Shown here: one piece after another, positions 36,274 to 45,033 of the stretch
Layout: the number at the start of each line of letters is the position of its first letter
How positions within the stretch are numbered: the stretch's first letter is position 1
NCBI GenBank assembly: GCA_016868915.1
Contig: VGFL01000009.1
Location: 1-46,133, forward strand
Reading direction: 5' to 3'
Length of the DNA stretch: 46,133 nucleotides
Source: Bacteroidota bacterium
Lineage (GTDB): Bacteria > Bacteroidota > Bacteroidia > Flavobacteriales_D > Crocinitomicaceae
Position numbers and translations under genes: made by a program
Notes under the pieces: generated by a model
Databases searched by the model: none
What the model saw: the letters and a program-made list of their open reading frames with translations, nothing else
Told to the model about the DNA's origin: nothing

Positions 36274-37530
36274 TTATAAATCAAAGGCTTGCTTTACTTT
36301 GTCGACGTAATCTAACTTTTCCCAAGTGAATAATTCAACTTCCCTCGTAATAATCTTCCCTTCAGGTGATGTAAAAGATTTGGTTACTTTTTCATTCTTT
36401 CTTCCCATGTGGCCGTATGCAGCCGTTTCTTGATAAATTGGATTTCTCAATTTAAGACGCTGCTCGATAAAGTAAGGCCGCATATCAAAAATTTCTGAGA
36501 CTTTTTCTGCAATTTGACCATCCGTGAGGTTTACTTTGCACGTACCATATGTATTAACATATAAACCGCATGGTTTTGCAACACCAATTGCATAAGAGAC
36601 TTGAACTAAAATTTCATCGCACAATCCTGCAGCCACTAAATTTTTTGCGATATGACGTGTGGCGTATGCAGCAGATCGATCCACTTTAGAAGGATCTTTT
36701 CCGGAGAATGCACCACCCCCGTGTGCACCTTTTCCGCCATATGTATCAACGATAATTTTCCTTCCTGTTAATCCTGTGTCACCGTGTGGTCCTCCAATAA
36801 CAAATTTCCCAGTTGGATTTATGTGGTATTGAATTTTTTCATTGAATAAATCTTGAAGTTCAGGATTTAACTTGGATTTAACCCTTGGAATAACGATTTG
36901 GATAATATCGGTTTTAATTTTTGACAACATTTCATTTTCTGAGGCAAAGTCGTCGTGTTGTGTCGAAACAACAATTGTATCGATGCGCTGAGGTACATTA
37001 TCATCGGAGTATTCGATGGTTACCTGAGATTTAGCATCTGGACGTAAGTATGGAATTAACTGGGATTCATTATTTCTTATATTCGAAAGTTCTTGCAGAA
37101 TCTTATGTGCCAAATCCAAAGCAAGAGGCATATAATTTTCAGTTTCTCGGGTTGCATATCCGAACATCATCCCTTGATCTCCTGCGCCTTGTTCCTCAGG
37201 GTTTGTTCTCTCAACTCCTTGATTTATGTCTGATGATTGTTCATGTAAGGCAGAAAAAATTCCACATGAGTTTGCGTCGAACATATACTCAGATTTGGTA
37301 TATCCAATTTGCCTGATGGTTTCTCTTGCGATCGATTGCACGTCAAGATACGACTTTGTCTTAATTTCACCAGCTAAAACTACTTGGCCGGTTGTTACAA
37401 GGGTCTCACAAGCGACTTTTGATGTTGGATCAAAAGCCATGAAATGATCAATAAGAGCATCGGATATTTGGTCAGAAACTTTATCAGGATGTCCTTCGGA
37501 AACAGATTCAGAAGTAAATAAATAAGGCAT
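36274..37530 (-). CDS. metK: S-adenosylmethionine synthetase
   Basis: MetK makes S-adenosylmethionine from methionine and ATP. The 418-aa protein has the expected [22 protein letters not shown] at the N-terminus, the signature [12 protein letters not shown], the P-loop-like [19 protein letters not shown], and [11 protein letters not shown], all in order. It carries a slightly longer central region (about residues 170-240), as in other Bacteroidota. No SAM-I or SAM-II riboswitch-like sequence was recognised in the short AT-rich leader. It is read away from the cobalamin riboswitch, so the 431-bp intergenic region between them holds divergent control elements. Confidence 0.97.
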
Positions 37531-37676: not shown

Positions 37677-37684
37677 TAATTTTG
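37677..37684 (+). promoter_or_regulatory. Candidate -7 element TAATTTTG upstream of the cobalamin riboswitch
   Basis: There is an exact TAnnTTTG match directly before the riboswitch. It leaves little room before the 5' arm of helix P1, so transcription may begin within P1, or a promoter further upstream (region 37640-37662) may be used. The rest of 37531-37676 is AT-rich with no other feature I can support. Confidence 0.4.
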
Positions 37685-37685
37685 A

Positions 37686-37843
37686 CCGTTCTTTGGTGTT
37701 CGTTCGTGCGAAATTAAAAAGGAATCCGGTGTAAATCCGGAGCTGTATCTGCAGCTGTAAGCACTGTAAGCGGTTGATAAACCACTGTGAAAACGGGAAG
37801 GTGACCAGCGTTGGTGTGAGCCAGAAGACTTGCCTATGAATGG
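37686..37843 (+). ncRNA. Cobalamin (B12) riboswitch
   Basis: The region contains the conserved core of the cobalamin aptamer in the right order: AAAAGGAATCCGGTGTAAAT with CCGGAGCTG (the GGTGxAAxTCC core), GCACTGTAAGCGG, AACCACTGTGA, CGGGAAGGTGACC, and the B12-box end GTGAGCCAGAAGACTTGCC. CCGTTC at 37686-37691 can pair with GAATGG at 37838-37843 as helix P1. The aptamer binds adenosyl- or other cobalamins and shuts down downstream expression when B12 is plentiful. It faces the gene at 37962. Confidence 0.93.
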
Positions 37844-37875
37844 AGAGAAGACTTCAGAATAAAGTCGGACTCGTT

Positions 37876-37905
37876 AATGGGTTGAGGTGCACCCGTTCGT
37901 TTCCT
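37876..37905 (+). terminator. Terminator-type expression platform of the B12 riboswitch
   Basis: AATGGGT (37876-37882) and ACCCGTT (37891-37897) form a 7-bp stem with one G-U pair and an 8-nt loop, followed by CGTTTCCTTCTTTTTT. It ends about 60 bp before the start codon. This suggests B12-dependent transcription termination. The 3' arm CCCGTT is also complementary to AACGGG at 37792-37797 inside the aptamer, which may be chance or an alternative fold. Confidence 0.65.
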
Positions 37906-37961
37906 TCTTTTTTCTTCTTCTTGTTTTTAGTGTATTTAGTAACCGTTTAAAAACAGAATGA

Positions 37962-39215
37962 ATGAAAAAGGTTTTATTAACAGTAGGATTATTCCTAAGT
38001 ATTAGTGCACAAGCACAAAATTATTTACATCAAGCCATCATATTAAATGAAGGCTATTTTGATTATCAAACAAATGAAATTATTGAGCCTGCTACTATCG
38101 GAAAATATGATCCGGTATCACAAGCATATTCAGTGGTTGATACACTGGAGGGAATGCGTTTTTCCTCTGATTTGATCATTGATGGAAACTTCTATTACGT
38201 TGCAGCAGATTCAAAAATCTTTAAAATGGATTTGAATTCACACCAAGAAATTTTATCGGTTTCGTGTCCTGGAGTCCGAAATCTCGGGATTTATCAAAAT
38301 AAATTGGTGGCAACAAGAGGCGAATACATGGCCAATTACAACGCGTATTTGCATGTTTACAATGCCCAAACGCTGGAGTTGATAGCAGAAATAGATACCA
38401 TGCAAGGACCTAAATGGCCTGCTCAAAATATCGTAATTGATGGCAACTTCGCTTACATTGCTGTAAATAATGGATTTGACTGGGGAAATGAAAAGGGAAT
38501 CATCGGAAAATTAGATTTGAATGCGTTGACCTACGGAAATGAAATTGATTTAGGACCCGATGGGAAAAATCCAGATAATTTGGTGAAACTTGGTACTTTT
38601 TTATATTCAGTAAACAATAAAGACTGGTCAGGTGCTTCGATATCCAAAGTTGCTCTCGATGGCTCTTCTAATTCCACAATTAATATTGCAGCAGCATCTA
38701 CAGGATGTGGAACTTCTGCATTGCGAGATGATAAATTGGTATATCAGGTTTCCATGGAAACAACCTTGAATGAATTTGATCTAAACATGATGAACAATGT
38801 TGGACCAGTGATTGGTCATTCATTGAACTATTATGAATTGGCTCAAGAGCCAGTTTCGGGAAATTTATTCACAAGTGAAACGGATTTCTTTTCTTTTGGA
38901 AAAGTACATGTTTTTGATGCAAATAATAATGAATTGAGCAATTTCAATGTGGGAATTTCACCGGGAACAATTGTTTTTGATGTACGTCCAGGATCTGCAA
39001 ATTTGAATGAGTTACCCTCTTCCAACATTACCGTTTTCCCAAATCCAACTACTGATTTTTTGAATGTCAATATTGAAGGAACGAAACAAGTTTTGGATTT
39101 GAATGGAAAAGTGTTAATTTCTTCTGATGTGAATAACATTGATGTTAGCAGTTTAAATTCTGGTATTTATTTTCTTGAGGTTGAAGGAAAGAAAGTTTCT
39201 TTTATAAAGAGATAA
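37962..39215 (+). CDS. B12-regulated, T9SS-exported beta-propeller protein (BtuG-like candidate)
   Basis: The 417-aa protein has a signal peptide (MKKVLLTVGLFLSISAQAQ), a beta-propeller region (about residues 20-345) of the YncE/DUF5074 type with repeated blades such as IGKYDPVSQAYSVVDTLEGM, LIIDGNFYYVAADSKIFKMD, LHVYNAQTLELIAEIDT and VIDGNFAYIAVNNG, and a C-terminal type IX sorting domain starting VFPNPTTDFLNV and ending KKVSFIKR. It is the only gene behind the cobalamin riboswitch. In Bacteroides, BtuG is a B12-regulated surface beta-propeller lipoprotein with very high corrinoid affinity. The fold type, regulation and surface delivery here suggest an analogous B12 scavenger, but sequence homology to BtuG has not been tested. 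Confidence 0.85.
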   Translation: MKKVLLTVGLFLSISAQAQNYLHQAIILNEGYFDYQTNEIIEPATIGKYDPVSQAYSVVDTLEGMRFSSDLIIDGNFYYVAADSKIFKMDLNSHQEILSVSCPGVRNLGIYQNKLVATRGEYMANYNAYLHVYNAQTLELIAEIDTMQGPKWPAQNIVIDGNFAYIAVNNGFDWGNEKGIIGKLDLNALTYGNEIDLGPDGKNPDNLVKLGTFLYSVNNKDWSGASISKVALDGSSNSTINIAAASTGCGTSALRDDKLVYQVSMETTLNEFDLNMMNNVGPVIGHSLNYYELAQEPVSGNLFTSETDFFSFGKVHVFDANNNELSNFNVGISPGTIVFDVRPGSANLNELPSSNITVFPNPTTDFLNVNIEGTKQVLDLNGKVLISSDVNNIDVSSLNSGIYFLEVEGKKVSFIKR

Positions 39216-39234: not shown

Positions 39235-39266
39235 AAATCCCGGGTGCCTTTGTATTCGGGATTTTT
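39235..39266. terminator. Terminator between the propeller gene and yaaA
   Basis: The stem AAATCCCG and CGGGATTT (8 bp, 14-nt loop) is followed by TT-GTTG on the plus strand, 20 bp after the propeller stop codon. The two flanking genes converge, so it may stop both transcripts. Confidence 0.75.
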
Positions 39267-39309: not shown

Positions 39310-40068
39310 CTATCGAACAAAAACCCATTCATTTTCAGAAGATTGAGCTTCGTTGAATTCGTAATTATCTACGTTGTACGTTTTGAGTTGTTCGATATCT
39401 TCAAAATCATTTTCGATGAGGTAACGACTCATGCTTCCTCGGGCGTGTTTAGCAAAAATCATCACCGTTGAAAATTTGCCGTTTTTAAATTCTTTGAAGG
39501 TAGGTGTGATTACACGATTTTTCAGTTTTTTGAAATCAAGCGCCTTACTGTATTCTGCGGATGCCAGATTAATGATAATTTCATCAGAACTTAATTCACT
39601 TGCCAGCGATTTGGTAAGTTTTGGTCGCCAGAACGAATAAAGTGATATTTCTTTTGGAGTTACTTGAAAAGGAGTTCCCATCTCCAAACGGTAGGGTAAA
39701 ATCAAATCGGCTGGTTTGAGTAAGCCATACAATCCAGATAAAATTCGCAAGCGTTCTTGTGCTCTTTTTTTATTGCTTTCCGAAAGCTCATTGAAGTTCA
39801 ATCCTTTGTAGGCTTCACCAGTGAAAATTGCAGCTACCGGTAACCACTCCTCCTTACGTTCAATAGACCATTGCTGAAATCGTGAATGATTCAAATTTGC
39901 TAAATCCATGGAAATATCCATTAGTGTAGCCAATACTTTCGGCTTTAATTTTTTCAGCTTTTTCACCAATTTTTCGGAATCTGAGACAAAACGAGGCATT
40001 TCCGAAAAAACTTCCGCTTGAATGCCTTCCGTTTGAATAGATTTAGCAGGAGAAAGTAGAATTTTCAT
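39310..40068 (-). CDS. yaaA: Peroxide stress protein YaaA (UPF0246/DUF328)
   Basis: The 252-aa protein starts MKILLSPAKSIQTEG and has LMDISMDLANLNHSRFQQW, AIFTGEAYKGLN, RLRILSGLYGLLKPADLILPYRLEMGT, INLASAEYSKAL and MIFAKHARGSMSRYLI, the characteristic segments of the YaaA family in order. E. coli YaaA lowers free intracellular iron during hydrogen peroxide stress and binds DNA; the Bacteroidota protein is assumed to act similarly. The start is ATG at 40068; a TTG two codons upstream is ignored. It follows the methyltransferase gene by 15 bp on the same strand. Confidence 0.95.
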   Translation of the reverse strand: MKILLSPAKSIQTEGIQAEVFSEMPRFVSDSEKLVKKLKKLKPKVLATLMDISMDLANLNHSRFQQWSIERKEEWLPVAAIFTGEAYKGLNFNELSESNKKRAQERLRILSGLYGLLKPADLILPYRLEMGTPFQVTPKEISLYSFWRPKLTKSLASELSSDEIIINLASAEYSKALDFKKLKNRVITPTFKEFKNGKFSTVMIFAKHARGSMSRYLIENDFEDIEQLKTYNVDNYEFNEAQSSENEWVFVR

Positions 40069-40083
40069 TACCAAAAGGATAAA

Positions 40084-41317: not shown

Positions 41318-43612
41318 TTGAGCCGAATTAAACTCCCTTTTTTGCTATTTATTATTCAATTCGTGAATATCCATTTGCTGATTTCACAGGAGCGGGTTGG
41401 CCTCGTTTTAAGTGGCGGAGGTGCTTCAGGATTGGCGCACATCGGAGTACTAAAAGCACTTGAAGAAAATGGAATTCCAATTGATTACATTACGGGCACT
41501 TCTGCTGGAGCTTTAACAGGAGTAATGTATGCCGCAGGATATTCACCAACTGAAATTGAGGCCTTTGTCTTGTCCGATGAATTTCAACAAATGACTTCAG
41601 GAGAACTAGATGCTTCCAAGAGATTTCTATTTCGTGAGCCTGATCAACATGCTGGGACCGTAGATTTTTCTTTTTCGAAGGACAGTTTATTGAGGCGATC
41701 AATTCCATTAAATTTGGTGAGTCCCGCGCTTTTGGATTTTAAAATGATGCAAATCATGGGAACTGTTGGAGCATCCAGAAATAATGACTTTAATAATTTA
41801 TTTGTCCCTTTTCGCTGCGTGGCCTCTGATTTTCAAAACAAAAAAAGTGTGATTTTTTCGAAGGGAAATTTGAATGAAGCAGTTCGTGCCTCCATGACGT
41901 ATCCTTTGTATGTAAATCCAATACGAATAAATGGAACGCTTTTTTTTGACGGCGGGTTATACAATAACTTCCCTGCTGATGTAATGTATAATGAATTTCA
42001 TCCTGATTTTATCATTGGAAGTAATGTGTCTGGAAATGCTGCTGCACCTGATGAGCAAGATTTTATTGGGGTTTTACAAACTATGTTGGTGAGTTATTCT
42101 AATTTTGATCTTCCTTGTGCAGATGGATTGATAATTCAGCCAAAATCGGATGTTGGCACCTTTGATTTTAAAGACGCTAAATCAGCTATTCAATCGGGTT
42201 ATTTAGCAACAATTGATATAATAGATTCACTAAAATTGAAAATTAATAAACGAATTTCAATAGAAGAATTGACTGAACGAAGAAAAGTGTTTCGTAATTC
42301 TGTTCTGCCCTTGAATATTAGTTCTGTGGAACAGGGTGATCAAAAGAGTAAGGGAGTAAAATTTGCCAAGAAAACCATCATTGGCAATAATTCAAAAAGG
42401 GTCTTGTCTTTGGATACCTTTGAAAAAAGATATTTTCGATTGTATTCAACGCCACAAATAGATTTTATTTATCCAACCCTTTCCTTGAAAAACGATTCTA
42501 CCTATAATTTAAAACTATTTGTCCGTAAGGCGCGTGATTTTCAGTTGGACATTGGAGGTCATCTTTCATCGAGGGCAGTAAATACTGGTTATGTTGGGCT
42601 CACATATAAGATGGTCGGTTCTGTGGCATCGAGCTTTCGTGCAGAATCGTATTTTGGTAAGTTTTATGGTTCTGTTAAAACGGATGTGAACATTGAATTG
42701 CCTAGTATTTATCCCTTATCTGCATCAGCTTATTTTGTGATGAATCGTTGGGATTATTTCAGAAGTTTTGCTACTTTTTTTGAAGATGTTCAGCCGTCTT
42801 TTTTGATTCAAAATGAAATGTATGCCGGTGTGCAATTTAAACATCCTATCGGTAATAACTCTAAATCAACGTTTAATTTTCGGTATTTTGAATTAGATGA
42901 TGAATATTATCAAAATACAAATTTCACAAATAAAGATACTGCTGATTTAACCTCATTTTTTGGAAGTTCAATAAGCTGGGAATTTACTCAGAATAGTTTG
43001 AACAGGAAGCAATTTGCAAATTCAGGGCATTATTTTCAATTTCAAGTTAGATTAGTTGAAGGAAGAGAAAATACAGCCCCAGGATCAACCTCCACATTTG
43101 AAGAAACATTTCGCAAGTACCATTCATGGTTCAACGTAACCTCTGAAATTCAATCATATATTTATTCAGACAAAATTTTTCATTTGGGAATTCATGGTAA
43201 AGGACAGTTGACATCTCAATCTTTATTTGCAAATTACACCGCCTCATTACTCACACTTCCTGCATTTTCGATTATTCCAGATCAAGAGACTTATTTTTTA
43301 CCCGAGTTTCGTTCACATCAGCATGTTGGGGGTGGTCTAAATTTAGTTTTTAGTATCCGTAAAAACATCGACTATCGAATAGACGCATATTACTATCAAC
43401 CTTTTCTTCAACTACAGAAAAATGACGATGGATCTATTCAATATATTAAACCATTTAAAGGTGAAACATTTTTAGCTTCAACATCATTAATTTTTCATTC
43501 ATTGTTAGGTCCAATAAGAGCCACACTAAATTATTTCCCAACCCAAAAATATCAATTTGCTTTTCAATTGAGTTATGGCTATGTTTTGTTTAATCAACGA
43601 GCAATTCGTTGA
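41318..43612 (+). CDS. Patatin-like phospholipase with C-terminal outer-membrane barrel (type Vd-like)
   Basis: The 764-aa protein has a signal peptide (ending near LLISQE) and a patatin domain at about residues 27-310: oxyanion loop SGGGASGLAHIG, nucleophile S62 in GTSAG, and the dyad Asp D211 in DGGLYNNFP. Residues about 320-764 look like a POTRA-type linker followed by a 16-strand barrel of the Omp85 type (IGGHLSSRAVNTGYVGLTYK, MYAGVQFKHPIG, and last strand FAFQLSYGYVLF). This is the layout of PlpD/FplA type Vd autotransporters, which place a phospholipase at the surface or in the periplasm. The start is TTG at 41318; no ATG precedes the signal peptide. A terminator stem overlaps the last codons. 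Confidence 0.9.
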   Translation: MSRIKLPFLLFIIQFVNIHLLISQERVGLVLSGGGASGLAHIGVLKALEENGIPIDYITGTSAGALTGVMYAAGYSPTEIEAFVLSDEFQQMTSGELDASKRFLFREPDQHAGTVDFSFSKDSLLRRSIPLNLVSPALLDFKMMQIMGTVGASRNNDFNNLFVPFRCVASDFQNKKSVIFSKGNLNEAVRASMTYPLYVNPIRINGTLFFDGGLYNNFPADVMYNEFHPDFIIGSNVSGNAAAPDEQDFIGVLQTMLVSYSNFDLPCADGLIIQPKSDVGTFDFKDAKSAIQSGYLATIDIIDSLKLKINKRISIEELTERRKVFRNSVLPLNISSVEQGDQKSKGVKFAKKTIIGNNSKRVLSLDTFEKRYFRLYSTPQIDFIYPTLSLKNDSTYNLKLFVRKARDFQLDIGGHLSSRAVNTGYVGLTYKMVGSVASSFRAESYFGKFYGSVKTDVNIELPSIYPLSASAYFVMNRWDYFRSFATFFEDVQPSFLIQNEMYAGVQFKHPIGNNSKSTFNFRYFELDDEYYQNTNFTNKDTADLTSFFGSSISWEFTQNSLNRKQFANSGHYFQFQVRLVEGRENTAPGSTSTFEETFRKYHSWFNVTSEIQSYIYSDKIFHLGIHGKGQLTSQSLFANYTASLLTLPAFSIIPDQETYFLPEFRSHQHVGGGLNLVFSIRKNIDYRIDAYYYQPFLQLQKNDDGSIQYIKPFKGETFLASTSLIFHSLLGPIRATLNYFPTQKYQFAFQLSYGYVLFNQRAIR

Positions 43613-43619
43613 TTTTTTG
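43592..43619 (+). terminator. Terminator overlapping the end of the patatin gene
   Basis: AATCAACG (43592-43599) and CGTTGATT (43607-43614) form a perfect 8-bp stem with a 7-nt loop, followed by a T-run to 43617. The patatin stop codon (43610-43612) lies within the 3' arm, so the terminator is partly coding. Confidence 0.75.
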
Positions 43620-43644
43620 TAACTTCAACAAAAAAATTAAATCT

Positions 43645-45033
43645 ATGAAATTAGTATTTACTTTCTTTTTTTTGCTTCCCATTTTTTGTTCTATTGCCCA
43701 ATTCCAAGTTGGTCATACCACGATAACATTCAATGATCCAGCACGAACGGGTGGATTTGGCTCCGGTGGAGGTTCAGGACGTCAAATACAAACGGAGATT
43801 TACTATCCAGCGATAACAGCCGGAGATAATGTGGCACTTGCATCTGGTCAATTTCCTGTTATCACCTTCGGTCATGGTTTTGCGATGGCATGGGATGCCT
43901 ATTCTAACATCTGGCAACATTATGTTGCGAGAGGATACATATTAGCTTTTCCAAGAACAGAGGGAGGATTAATACCAGGGCCTAGTCACGGCGATTTTGG
44001 AACGGATTTAAAGCAAGTATCCGATAAAATGTTGGCTTTGAACACCAATGCGAGTTCTATTTTTAACGGAAAAATTTTACAAAAAGCCGCCATTATTGGA
44101 CATTCCATGGGAGGTGGAGCGTCTTTTTTAGCAGCTGCTAATAATACGAATATTGAAACGGTCATTGGCTTTGCTCCTGCAGAGACGAACCCTTCAGCCA
44201 TCGATGCGGCAGCAAATGTTTCGTGTCCAGCACTTGTTTTTTCAGGAAGTGCAGACGGCGTTACTCCGCCGGCAAATCATCATATCCCCATTTATAATAG
44301 CGCCTCAAGTATTTGTAAAAGTTTTGTTTCAATTACAGGCGGAGCGCACTGTTATTATGCCAATACGAATTTCAATTGTGATTTTGGGGAAAATACTTCT
44401 TCACAAAATATTTCGATCACGCGAGCGGAACAACAAACTGCTACATATGGAATTCTTGATCCTTGGTTAGATTTTAAGTTAAAAGGGATTTGCAATGCTT
44501 ACGGAGCATTTTTATTAGCTATCGAATCTCAACCAGGAACCATAAATGAAACGCTTTGCCCCTCTTTACCTACAGTGACAATAATAAACGATCCAAATCA
44601 AGGTTCAGATGTGTATTGTTCCTCCCTGCAGGGTAATTCATATCAATGGTACATGGACAATCAGCCAATAGTTGGTGAAACATCTCAATGCTACAACATA
44701 CCTACAGATTTGGGGGCAACTTACCAGGTTGAAGTGTTTTTTGAAAATGGCTGTGTGTTTAGTCAACCGATTACGTTTACTTCAGGATTGAATGATTTGA
44801 CTTCTTCTCAGGTAAAACTTTATCCGAATCCAGCCAATCAATTTGTTACAATCGAATCGGATAAAAATGAAATCAACTACCTTCTTTTGGATTTAAATGG
44901 AAGAGTAATACAGGCTAATCAAACGTATTCAAAAATTCATTTAATCGAAATATCCACATTAAATAAAGGTGTTTATCACCTCACAATTTCAGATGGGTTA
45001 AATAAAATCACAAAACAATTTATAAAAGAATAA
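43645..45033 (+). CDS. Secreted alpha/beta hydrolase with T9SS sorting domain
   Basis: Using ATG 43645, the 462-aa protein has a signal peptide (MKLVFTFFFLLPIFCSIAQ), an alpha/beta-hydrolase domain (about 20-280) with FPVITFGHGFAMAWDAYSN as oxyanion region, nucleophile S154 in IIGHSMGGGAS, an Asp in FSGSADGVTPP and a His in ITGGAHCYY. A short Ig/PKD-like segment (SYQWYMDNQPIVGETSQCY) follows, then a type A T9SS sorting domain (LYPNPANQFVTIES to KQFIKE). It resembles chlorophyllase/PAF-acetylhydrolase or lipase-like esterases; substrate unknown. The longer frame to 43609 is rejected since it starts within the patatin stop and lacks a signal peptide. The next gene follows after 1 bp. Confidence 0.87.
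   Translation: MKLVFTFFFLLPIFCSIAQFQVGHTTITFNDPARTGGFGSGGGSGRQIQTEIYYPAITAGDNVALASGQFPVITFGHGFAMAWDAYSNIWQHYVARGYILAFPRTEGGLIPGPSHGDFGTDLKQVSDKMLALNTNASSIFNGKILQKAAIIGHSMGGGASFLAAANNTNIETVIGFAPAETNPSAIDAAANVSCPALVFSGSADGVTPPANHHIPIYNSASSICKSFVSITGGAHCYYANTNFNCDFGENTSSQNISITRAEQQTATYGILDPWLDFKLKGICNAYGAFLLAIESQPGTINETLCPSLPTVTIINDPNQGSDVYCSSLQGNSYQWYMDNQPIVGETSQCYNIPTDLGATYQVEVFFENGCVFSQPITFTSGLNDLTSSQVKLYPNPANQFVTIESDKNEINYLLLDLNGRVIQANQTYSKIHLIEISTLNKGVYHLTISDGLNKITKQFIKE

Follow-up and report, generated by a model that had tools for sequence, protein, structure and literature searches.

What does a cobalamin riboswitch govern when the only gene behind it encodes an exported β-propeller and not BtuB, the textbook B12 gate of Gram-negative bacteria? 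This question is raised by a locus on the plus strand (37677-39215) of a 46,133-nucleotide stretch of Crocinitomicaceae DNA (contig VGFL01000009.1), hereafter the window, in which Rfam, open-reading-frame and Pfam evidence delineates an aptamer, a hairpin and a lone propeller gene. A first-pass annotation, made from the sequence alone, took the product to be a possible new type of B12 capture protein. The best explanation, which we regard as probable when the scheme is taken as a whole, is that a riboswitch-controlled, T9SS-delivered BtuG-like propeller is used for corrinoid acquisition in place of an operon.

The aptamer (37677-37851, plus strand) matches the cobalamin riboswitch family RF00174 over the full model (1-189) at 99.4 bits, well above the gathering score of 31.5 bits. 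The covariance-model search that the first-pass annotation had called for thus bears out its reading of a complete cobalamin aptamer. It is the sole RF00174 element in the 2.2-Mb source genome. The start of the propeller gene, which we call class A, lies 111 nt past the aptamer end in the window and 95-122 nt past it in 18/18 propeller genomes of a family sample, and a separate Rfam scan placed RF00174 before the propeller gene in 8/8 relatives. Chance co-occurrence of aptamer and propeller gene is ruled out by this adjacency, seen in 18/18 genomes here and in 22 of 24 genomes of a second set.

An expression platform comprising two hairpins and then a T-rich run occupies positions 37850-37930 (plus strand). 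The first hairpin, GACTT-cagaata-AAGTC (37850-37866, plus strand), lies directly 3′ of the aptamer, and its five pairs form in 18/18 aligned leaders of propeller loci; because it is nearly invariant in these 18 leaders, it shows little covariation. Its loop CAGA could pair with a TCTG in the aptamer, presumably as a kissing loop of the kind found in class I cobalamin riboswitches. Across the 18-leader alignment, 37 of the 42 predicted pairs fall within the aptamer, and for 19 of the 42, one or more sequences keep the pairing although both sides have changed. The second hairpin (37876-37897, plus strand), followed by the T-rich run, is terminator-like and a plausible platform. Of the terminator platform proposed earlier, the first hairpin is conserved and the second is plausible; taken as a whole, however, 37830-37962 does not stand out in stability from shuffled sequences (z -1.45), and the 1.8 kb scanned contained 3 terminator-like sites versus 1.2 expected.

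The gene behind this leader (37962-39215, plus strand) encodes a 417-aa T9SS-tailed BtuG-like β-propeller. Its product begins with a Sec-type signal peptide, MKKVLLTVGLFLSISAQAQ (37962-38018, plus strand), recognised by eye and lacking a lipobox Cys; residues 1-20 have a pLDDT below 50 in the structure model. The propeller body, as delimited in that model, spans residues about 20-345 (38019-38996, plus strand), and a T9SS type A C-terminal sorting domain covers residues 358-417 (39033-39212, plus strand), with PF18962 and TIGR04183 both matching residues 358-416 (44.6 bits against a cut-off of 27 and 37.7 bits against a cut-off of 23, respectively). The protein thus combines the by-eye signal peptide with the TIGR04183/PF18962 tail that together mark type A T9SS cargo, in agreement with the original description of a lone exported gene product. 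The PF18962 tail recurs in 18/18 aligned class A relatives. Close relatives were found at 29 loci, all in metagenome-assembled genomes and several of them in Crocinitomicaceae. The YncE/DUF5074-like blades of the first reading fared less evenly. The propeller fold stands, with BtuG-type chains nearest, but Pfam returned an LVIVD match and no DUF5074 (PF16819) for the window protein, DUF5074 was found in 0/18 aligned class A proteins, and NCBIfam gave no YncE-type match for the window propeller. Because the family models yield no such match, these labels describe a fold and not a family.

Around the gene, a terminator-like hairpin with a 13-pair stem and T tail (39235-39264, plus strand) follows the coding sequence, and the next gene (39310-40074) lies on the opposite strand, suggesting that the propeller transcript is probably monocistronic. 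No receptor gene was found among the 20 window open reading frames scanned with Pfam. We considered metK (36274-37530) as a functional partner and dropped it because it lies near 0/61 of the propeller or operon loci compared; yaaA, the neighbour on the other side, was found at 1/61. Elsewhere in the window, positions 43609-45033 (plus strand) encode a PETase-like hydrolase with a T9SS tail.

We examined the fold of the propeller with an AlphaFold2 model (mean pLDDT 81.8), whose best structural matches are seven-bladed chains of the BtuG type, the Bacteroides surface lipoprotein (PDB 8blw, 8bai, 8okv, 3dsm). The first 11 rows of a Foldseek search are all BtuG-type (E 1.6e-16 to 1.3e-14), with designed and other propellers following from E 1.6e-12. 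The first 11 rows of VIA-align are likewise all BtuG-type (Z 31.7-34.2, 294-305 residues aligned, rmsd 2.1-2.5), and the first row of another type has a Z of 29.4. The predicted structure therefore supports the kinship to BtuG suggested at the outset. BtuK1 (PDB 9s6c), described in the available text of PMC12751083 as a B12-binding lipoprotein, also appears in the fold comparison, at Z 26.9, but is structurally more distant from the window propeller than BtuG is and differs from it in being a lipoprotein. At the sequence level, the class A profile matches Crocinitomicaceae BtuG-like lipoproteins (probability 97.4%, E 1e-11, 300 columns, 19% identity), which in turn match BtuG1 of B. thetaiotaomicron at E 3e-97. 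Sequence matches of class A to BtuG-type PDB chains are limited to residues 287-339 (E 1e-5 to 2e-3), and its remaining PDB sequence matches are T9SS-type tails.

A putative corrinoid pocket was mapped by aligning class A with BtuG1-3 at about 17% identity, with residue numbers after PMC10404256, the available part of which reports that the BtuG2 loop Asn54-Thr64 grips B12. At this level of identity, the start of that loop, N54-E55-G56 (NEG), corresponds to N29-E30-G31 in 18/18 class A proteins, Tyr316 to Y291 in 18/18, Tyr239 to W222 (W in 17, F in 1) and Tyr335 to F309 (F in 16, Y in 2). Trp194 falls beside W174, which is invariant in class A, and W272 has no class A counterpart. The computed net charge of the window propeller is -20; that of BtuG2 is given as -18 in the same partial source. 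The aligned residues are suggestive of a B12 pocket without being proof of one. Strong negative charge and cobalamin riboswitch control are shared with BtuG, and the NEG loop and several pocket aromatics align with it, at this low identity. In contrast to the lipid-anchored BtuG, the window propeller carries a Sec signal and a T9SS tail, stands without an adjacent btuB (none was detected in the propeller genomes checked) and is only about 17% identical. It also lacks the DUF5074 match that two Crocinitomicaceae BtuG lipoproteins have. With no lipobox, no linked btuB and no DUF5074 match, the window protein is not a BtuG by membership.

The riboswitch offers a point of comparison with the rest of the family, in which RF00174 was found in 112/120 genomes, including 96/96 of those with completeness of 90% or more and contamination of 5% or less. 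The 40 riboswitch loci that we read, 39 of them new, revealed a standard order of RF00174, a DUF4465-like gene (T9SS), BtuB, a BtuG-like lipoprotein and orf4, the products of the last three measuring about 655 aa (a BtuB-type receptor), about 350 aa and about 325 aa, respectively. A complete receptor was recovered at 20/40 loci, and a profile of the standard-operon receptors matches the solved BtuB1 at E 3e-147. In the two operons scanned with Pfam, the first gene product bears DUF4465 and a T9SS tail and the BtuG lipoprotein bears DUF5074 (2/2). The product of orf4 (L109:4907-5893 and L232:3831-4790 (-)) has a T9SS-type tail that scores over the cut-off in L109 and just under it in L232, and otherwise no Pfam match.

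The first genes after 31 aptamers, assigned to classes by eye from motifs, comprised 4 class A, 11 class B ('EGNFG', longer), 9 DUF4465-like, 5 class D, 1 receptor and 1 thioesterase-like gene; Pfam confirms two of the DUF4465 proteins and the T9SS tail of one class D protein. Class B proteins are secreted-looking, with the motif 'EGNFG..N.DVF' near the start (L002, L003, L007, L009, L012, L015, L016, L017, L021, L027, L030); 10 of the 11 reading frames reach no stop codon before the retrieved DNA ends, and the L003 and L002 proteins have no Pfam match. Class D, marked by 'Y..GSGPD.A...DF.D' (L004, L008, L024, L025, L029, L114), is a candidate new B12-linked exported family, Pfam finding no domain in the L008 protein and a T9SS tail only in that of L114. 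RF00174 also lies upstream of a small thioesterase-like gene (L120, L125, L128, L131, L135) and, in Crocinitomicaceae, before class I ribonucleotide reductase-like subunit genes, with which L124 and L129 are listed; these genes were named by eye.

To locate btuB itself, we scored the best 10 candidates per genome against a BtuB profile across the 120 Crocinitomicaceae genomes of the family sample, at a cut-off of E 1e-30. A full-length or near-full-length class A protein is encoded by 18/120 genomes, namely 11/11 of the source genus, g1, in the sample and 7 of g18. BtuB was found in 97/120 genomes, and thus in 97/102 of those without a propeller. Both together were found in 0/120, BtuB absence in G113 and G119 meaning that it was not among the matches listed. 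Five of the 120 genomes, 76-87% complete, have neither. More widely, class A or its homologues occur in 127/399 genomes of the order.

A second check of BtuB and RF00174 covered 80 genomes, made up of 24 with class A (15 of g1, 7 of g18 and 2 of g66), 45 of the distant group f9 and 11 of g1 without class A; it used at most the best 15 BtuB candidates per genome, and 40 more g1 class A genomes lie outside it. The RF00174 scans of both genome sets used stricter filters that can miss weak matches. Exactly one RF00174 was present in 24/24 class A genomes, directly before the propeller in 22 and on another contig in 2 (G375, G219). No BtuB better than E 6e-21 was found in these 24, 5 of which have weak BtuB-profile matches (E 6e-21 to 2e-12). 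Over both sets, the riboswitch-bearing propeller genomes checked have exactly one RF00174 in 42/42 and BtuB at E 1e-30 in 0/42. The observation that the locus lacks btuB holds for the 20 window open reading frames scanned, and at E 1e-30 BtuB was likewise undetected in all 18 propeller genomes of the sample and all 24 of the second set. BtuB (E 1e-148 to 1e-219) follows RF00174 in 7 of the 11 g1 genomes that lack class A; the other 4 (G228, G278, G372, G388) show neither RF00174 nor a strong BtuB match, and G228 and G278 are 98-99% complete. Neither system is therefore indispensable in these four, which have possibly lost this B12 system.

Comparing flanking genes at 30 loci, we found that, at two chromosomal sites in two genera, a single propeller gene and the four-gene operon have been exchanged behind RF00174. 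In g1, both states share a frame of rpsO/PNPase upstream and a pyrR-like gene plus murQ downstream. Both flanks are visible around the operon in G311, G291, G340 and G360 and around the propeller in G022, G040, G065, G084, G092, G194 and G256; the downstream flank only is visible for the operon in G230 and G371 and for the propeller in G053, G108, G254 and G329; and in G331 the upstream flank is visible and the contig ends inside BtuB. The g18 frame consists of a gene for an 800-aa TonB receptor and a methyltransferase gene. Both enclose the operon in G051, G082 and G106 and the propeller in G090 and G119; the receptor flank only is seen in G037 (operon) and in G063, G113 and G017 (propeller), and the methyltransferase flank only in G074 (propeller). 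Propeller loci off these frames are G205 (no flanks kept), G235 (upstream pair only) and the window, with metK and yaaA. The question of where btuB lies is thus answered on both sides: none was detected in the propeller genomes checked, and relatives hold a btuB operon at the site of the propeller in two genera. As a separate observation, the riboswitch locus in L034, L040, L049, L051 and L052 is preceded by an S15-Flavobacteria ribosomal leader (RF03161) in divergent orientation.

In a FastTree phylogeny of the flanking genes (17 loci), the six g1 BtuB loci form one clade with support 1.0, which would fit one switch in g1. The corresponding g18 tree (9 loci) separates the two states with a weak support of 0.53. 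In the propeller tree, g18 proteins fall among g1 proteins, mostly with weak support, so transfer of the propeller between genera is possible.

These exchanges bear directly on function. Since relatives keep a four-gene uptake set where this genome has a lone propeller under a B12 switch, the propeller probably replaces that set; and since propeller and operon are exchanged behind the same riboswitch, they very likely serve the same end, corrinoid acquisition. The window protein is most likely a T9SS-delivered BtuG-like corrinoid-capture protein doing the job of the DUF4465-BtuB-BtuG-orf4 operon. Riboswitch, BtuG-type fold and T9SS tail together support the first-pass inference of a BtuG-kind propeller exported from a locus that has no btuB.

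Could the propeller instead bind no corrinoid and be a B12-repressed protein of another kind, such as an adhesin or an enzyme that obtains B12 from a partner organism? We judge this unlikely. Propeller folds are versatile, and the thioesterase-like and ribonucleotide reductase-like genes named by eye show that family riboswitches also precede non-uptake genes. The f9 homologues stand without a riboswitch: RF00174 was found in 0/45 f9 genomes with propeller homologues under the stricter filters, BtuB better than E 2e-12 in 0/45, B12 genes recognisable by eye at none of the 17 f9 loci read and a recognised T9SS tail in 0/3 homologues scanned, so the propeller family is not always tied to the riboswitch. 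Many f9 homologues (L214-L230) lie beside a gene for a long secreted repeat protein and UbiA-like and asparaginase-like genes, as named by eye, and all 17 homologues read keep E30, Y291 and an aromatic at 222. Against a non-binding role, the nearest solved folds of the window propeller are BtuG-type with a gap to other propellers, the NEG loop and pocket aromatics are conserved, and propeller and BtuB-BtuG operon substitute for each other in place. A further alternative is that the protein is a regular BtuG and that its BtuB escaped detection through divergence or an assembly gap. The source assembly is split into 128 contigs, C34 among its 15 Plug places is a fragment cut off at a contig end and lies outside the comparison, and 5 of the 24 additional propeller genomes have weak BtuB-profile matches. 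But BtuB at E 1e-30 is found in 0/18 propeller genomes, including G084, which is 99% complete in about 10 contigs; 14/15 source Plug places have no BtuB-profile match at E 1 or better; and BtuB was exchanged in place along with BtuG. We therefore consider a missed partner highly improbable.

Gene content suggests uses for the vitamin in the source genome. MetH and methylmalonyl-CoA mutase are both encoded there with scores above cut-off; an IcmF-type mutase, truncated where its contig ends, scores below cut-off. CobS was not found in it; the gene occurs in 5/120 family genomes and in 1/18 propeller genomes (G053). One FecCD-type permease adjoins a periplasmic binding protein and an ATPase, and its nearest model is BtuC, at a score below that model's cut-off. 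We then compared receptors of four propeller genomes (G000, G115, G017 and 7/21 Plug places of G074) with those of the BtuB genome G037, G082 lying outside the comparison, and saw none present in all four yet missing from G037. Two partial leads emerged. A 743-aa receptor with ZnuD as its best solved match is present in G000, G115 and G074 (L086). A 616-aa TonB receptor is encoded in two g18 propeller genomes, G017 (L149:1104-2954) and G074 (L165); among solved structures it matches E. coli BtuB best, over the plug (E 8.5e-17), and the receptors read in G000 and G115 include no counterpart.

These observations suggest how the replacement might work. A fall in cellular cobalamin would, by the usual behaviour of this riboswitch class, permit expression of the propeller gene; the product, given its signal peptide and type A tail, would cross the inner membrane through Sec and the outer membrane through the T9SS. 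Displayed at or near the cell surface, it may bind corrinoids in its central pocket, as the fold and aligned residues suggest, and pass them to a non-BtuB outer-membrane transporter encoded elsewhere. From gene content, a BtuF/BtuC/BtuD-like ABC transporter would then import them for MetH, methylmalonyl-CoA mutase and the IcmF-type mutase. In evolution, as the flanks in two genera show, the single propeller gene and the DUF4465-BtuB-BtuG-orf4 operon have replaced each other behind the riboswitch. The specific proposal of B12 uptake without BtuB, in which the secreted propeller captures corrinoids and docks on or releases them to another transporter, replacing the operon in at least two genera, we advance tentatively, as a possibility that falls short of even expectation. 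A variant in which the propeller is released in the manner of a siderophore, picks up corrinoids afar and brings them back to a receptor, with no A-LPS tether to the surface, seems to us rather doubtful. A-LPS commonly anchors type A T9SS cargo, which speaks against release, and free diffusion would be costly in dilute water. On the other side, the propeller has no lipobox and no receptor was found among the window open reading frames scanned; BtuG, according to the available text of PMC10404256, is lipid-anchored and sits on BtuB, whereas the propeller has no known dock; and the accessible part of PMC12751083 describes a similar use of B12-binding vesicles by Bacteroides thetaiotaomicron.

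The preferred reading, a surface-delivered propeller replacing the operon, has partial parallels. BtuH and BtuJ (DUF4465) are also riboswitch-controlled exported corrinoid binders, and the available text of PMC13398666 reports B12 binding by eight tested DUF4465 members. They differ in being jelly rolls, not propellers (same partial source), and in Crocinitomicaceae, where the two DUF4465 proteins scanned have T9SS tails, DUF4465 comes first in the operon that replaces the propeller and is followed by BtuB. The cobalamin riboswitch of F. psychrophilum belongs to the same class in Flavobacteriales, but, in the accessible portion of PMC9723704, it controls a TonB receptor near cob genes, and not a lone secreted propeller as here. 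Among open-licence PMC articles, that paper was the only match for a cobalamin riboswitch combined with type IX secretion, and no riboswitch-controlled T9SS propeller was seen among the articles listed there for BtuG, BtuK and BtuB; descriptions may exist elsewhere.

In human gut bacteria, btuG occurs in 106/109 btuB operons according to the available text of PMC6143338. The lineages described here would be B12-using Bacteroidota that keep the riboswitch and have one secreted propeller where their relatives have a DUF4465 protein, BtuB and BtuG. Sister genomes that differ in state at a single locus offer a ready comparative test. If this scheme is true, a second outer-membrane corrinoid route awaits discovery, and natural competition for the vitamin may involve secreted scavengers that are now annotated only as T9SS cargo.
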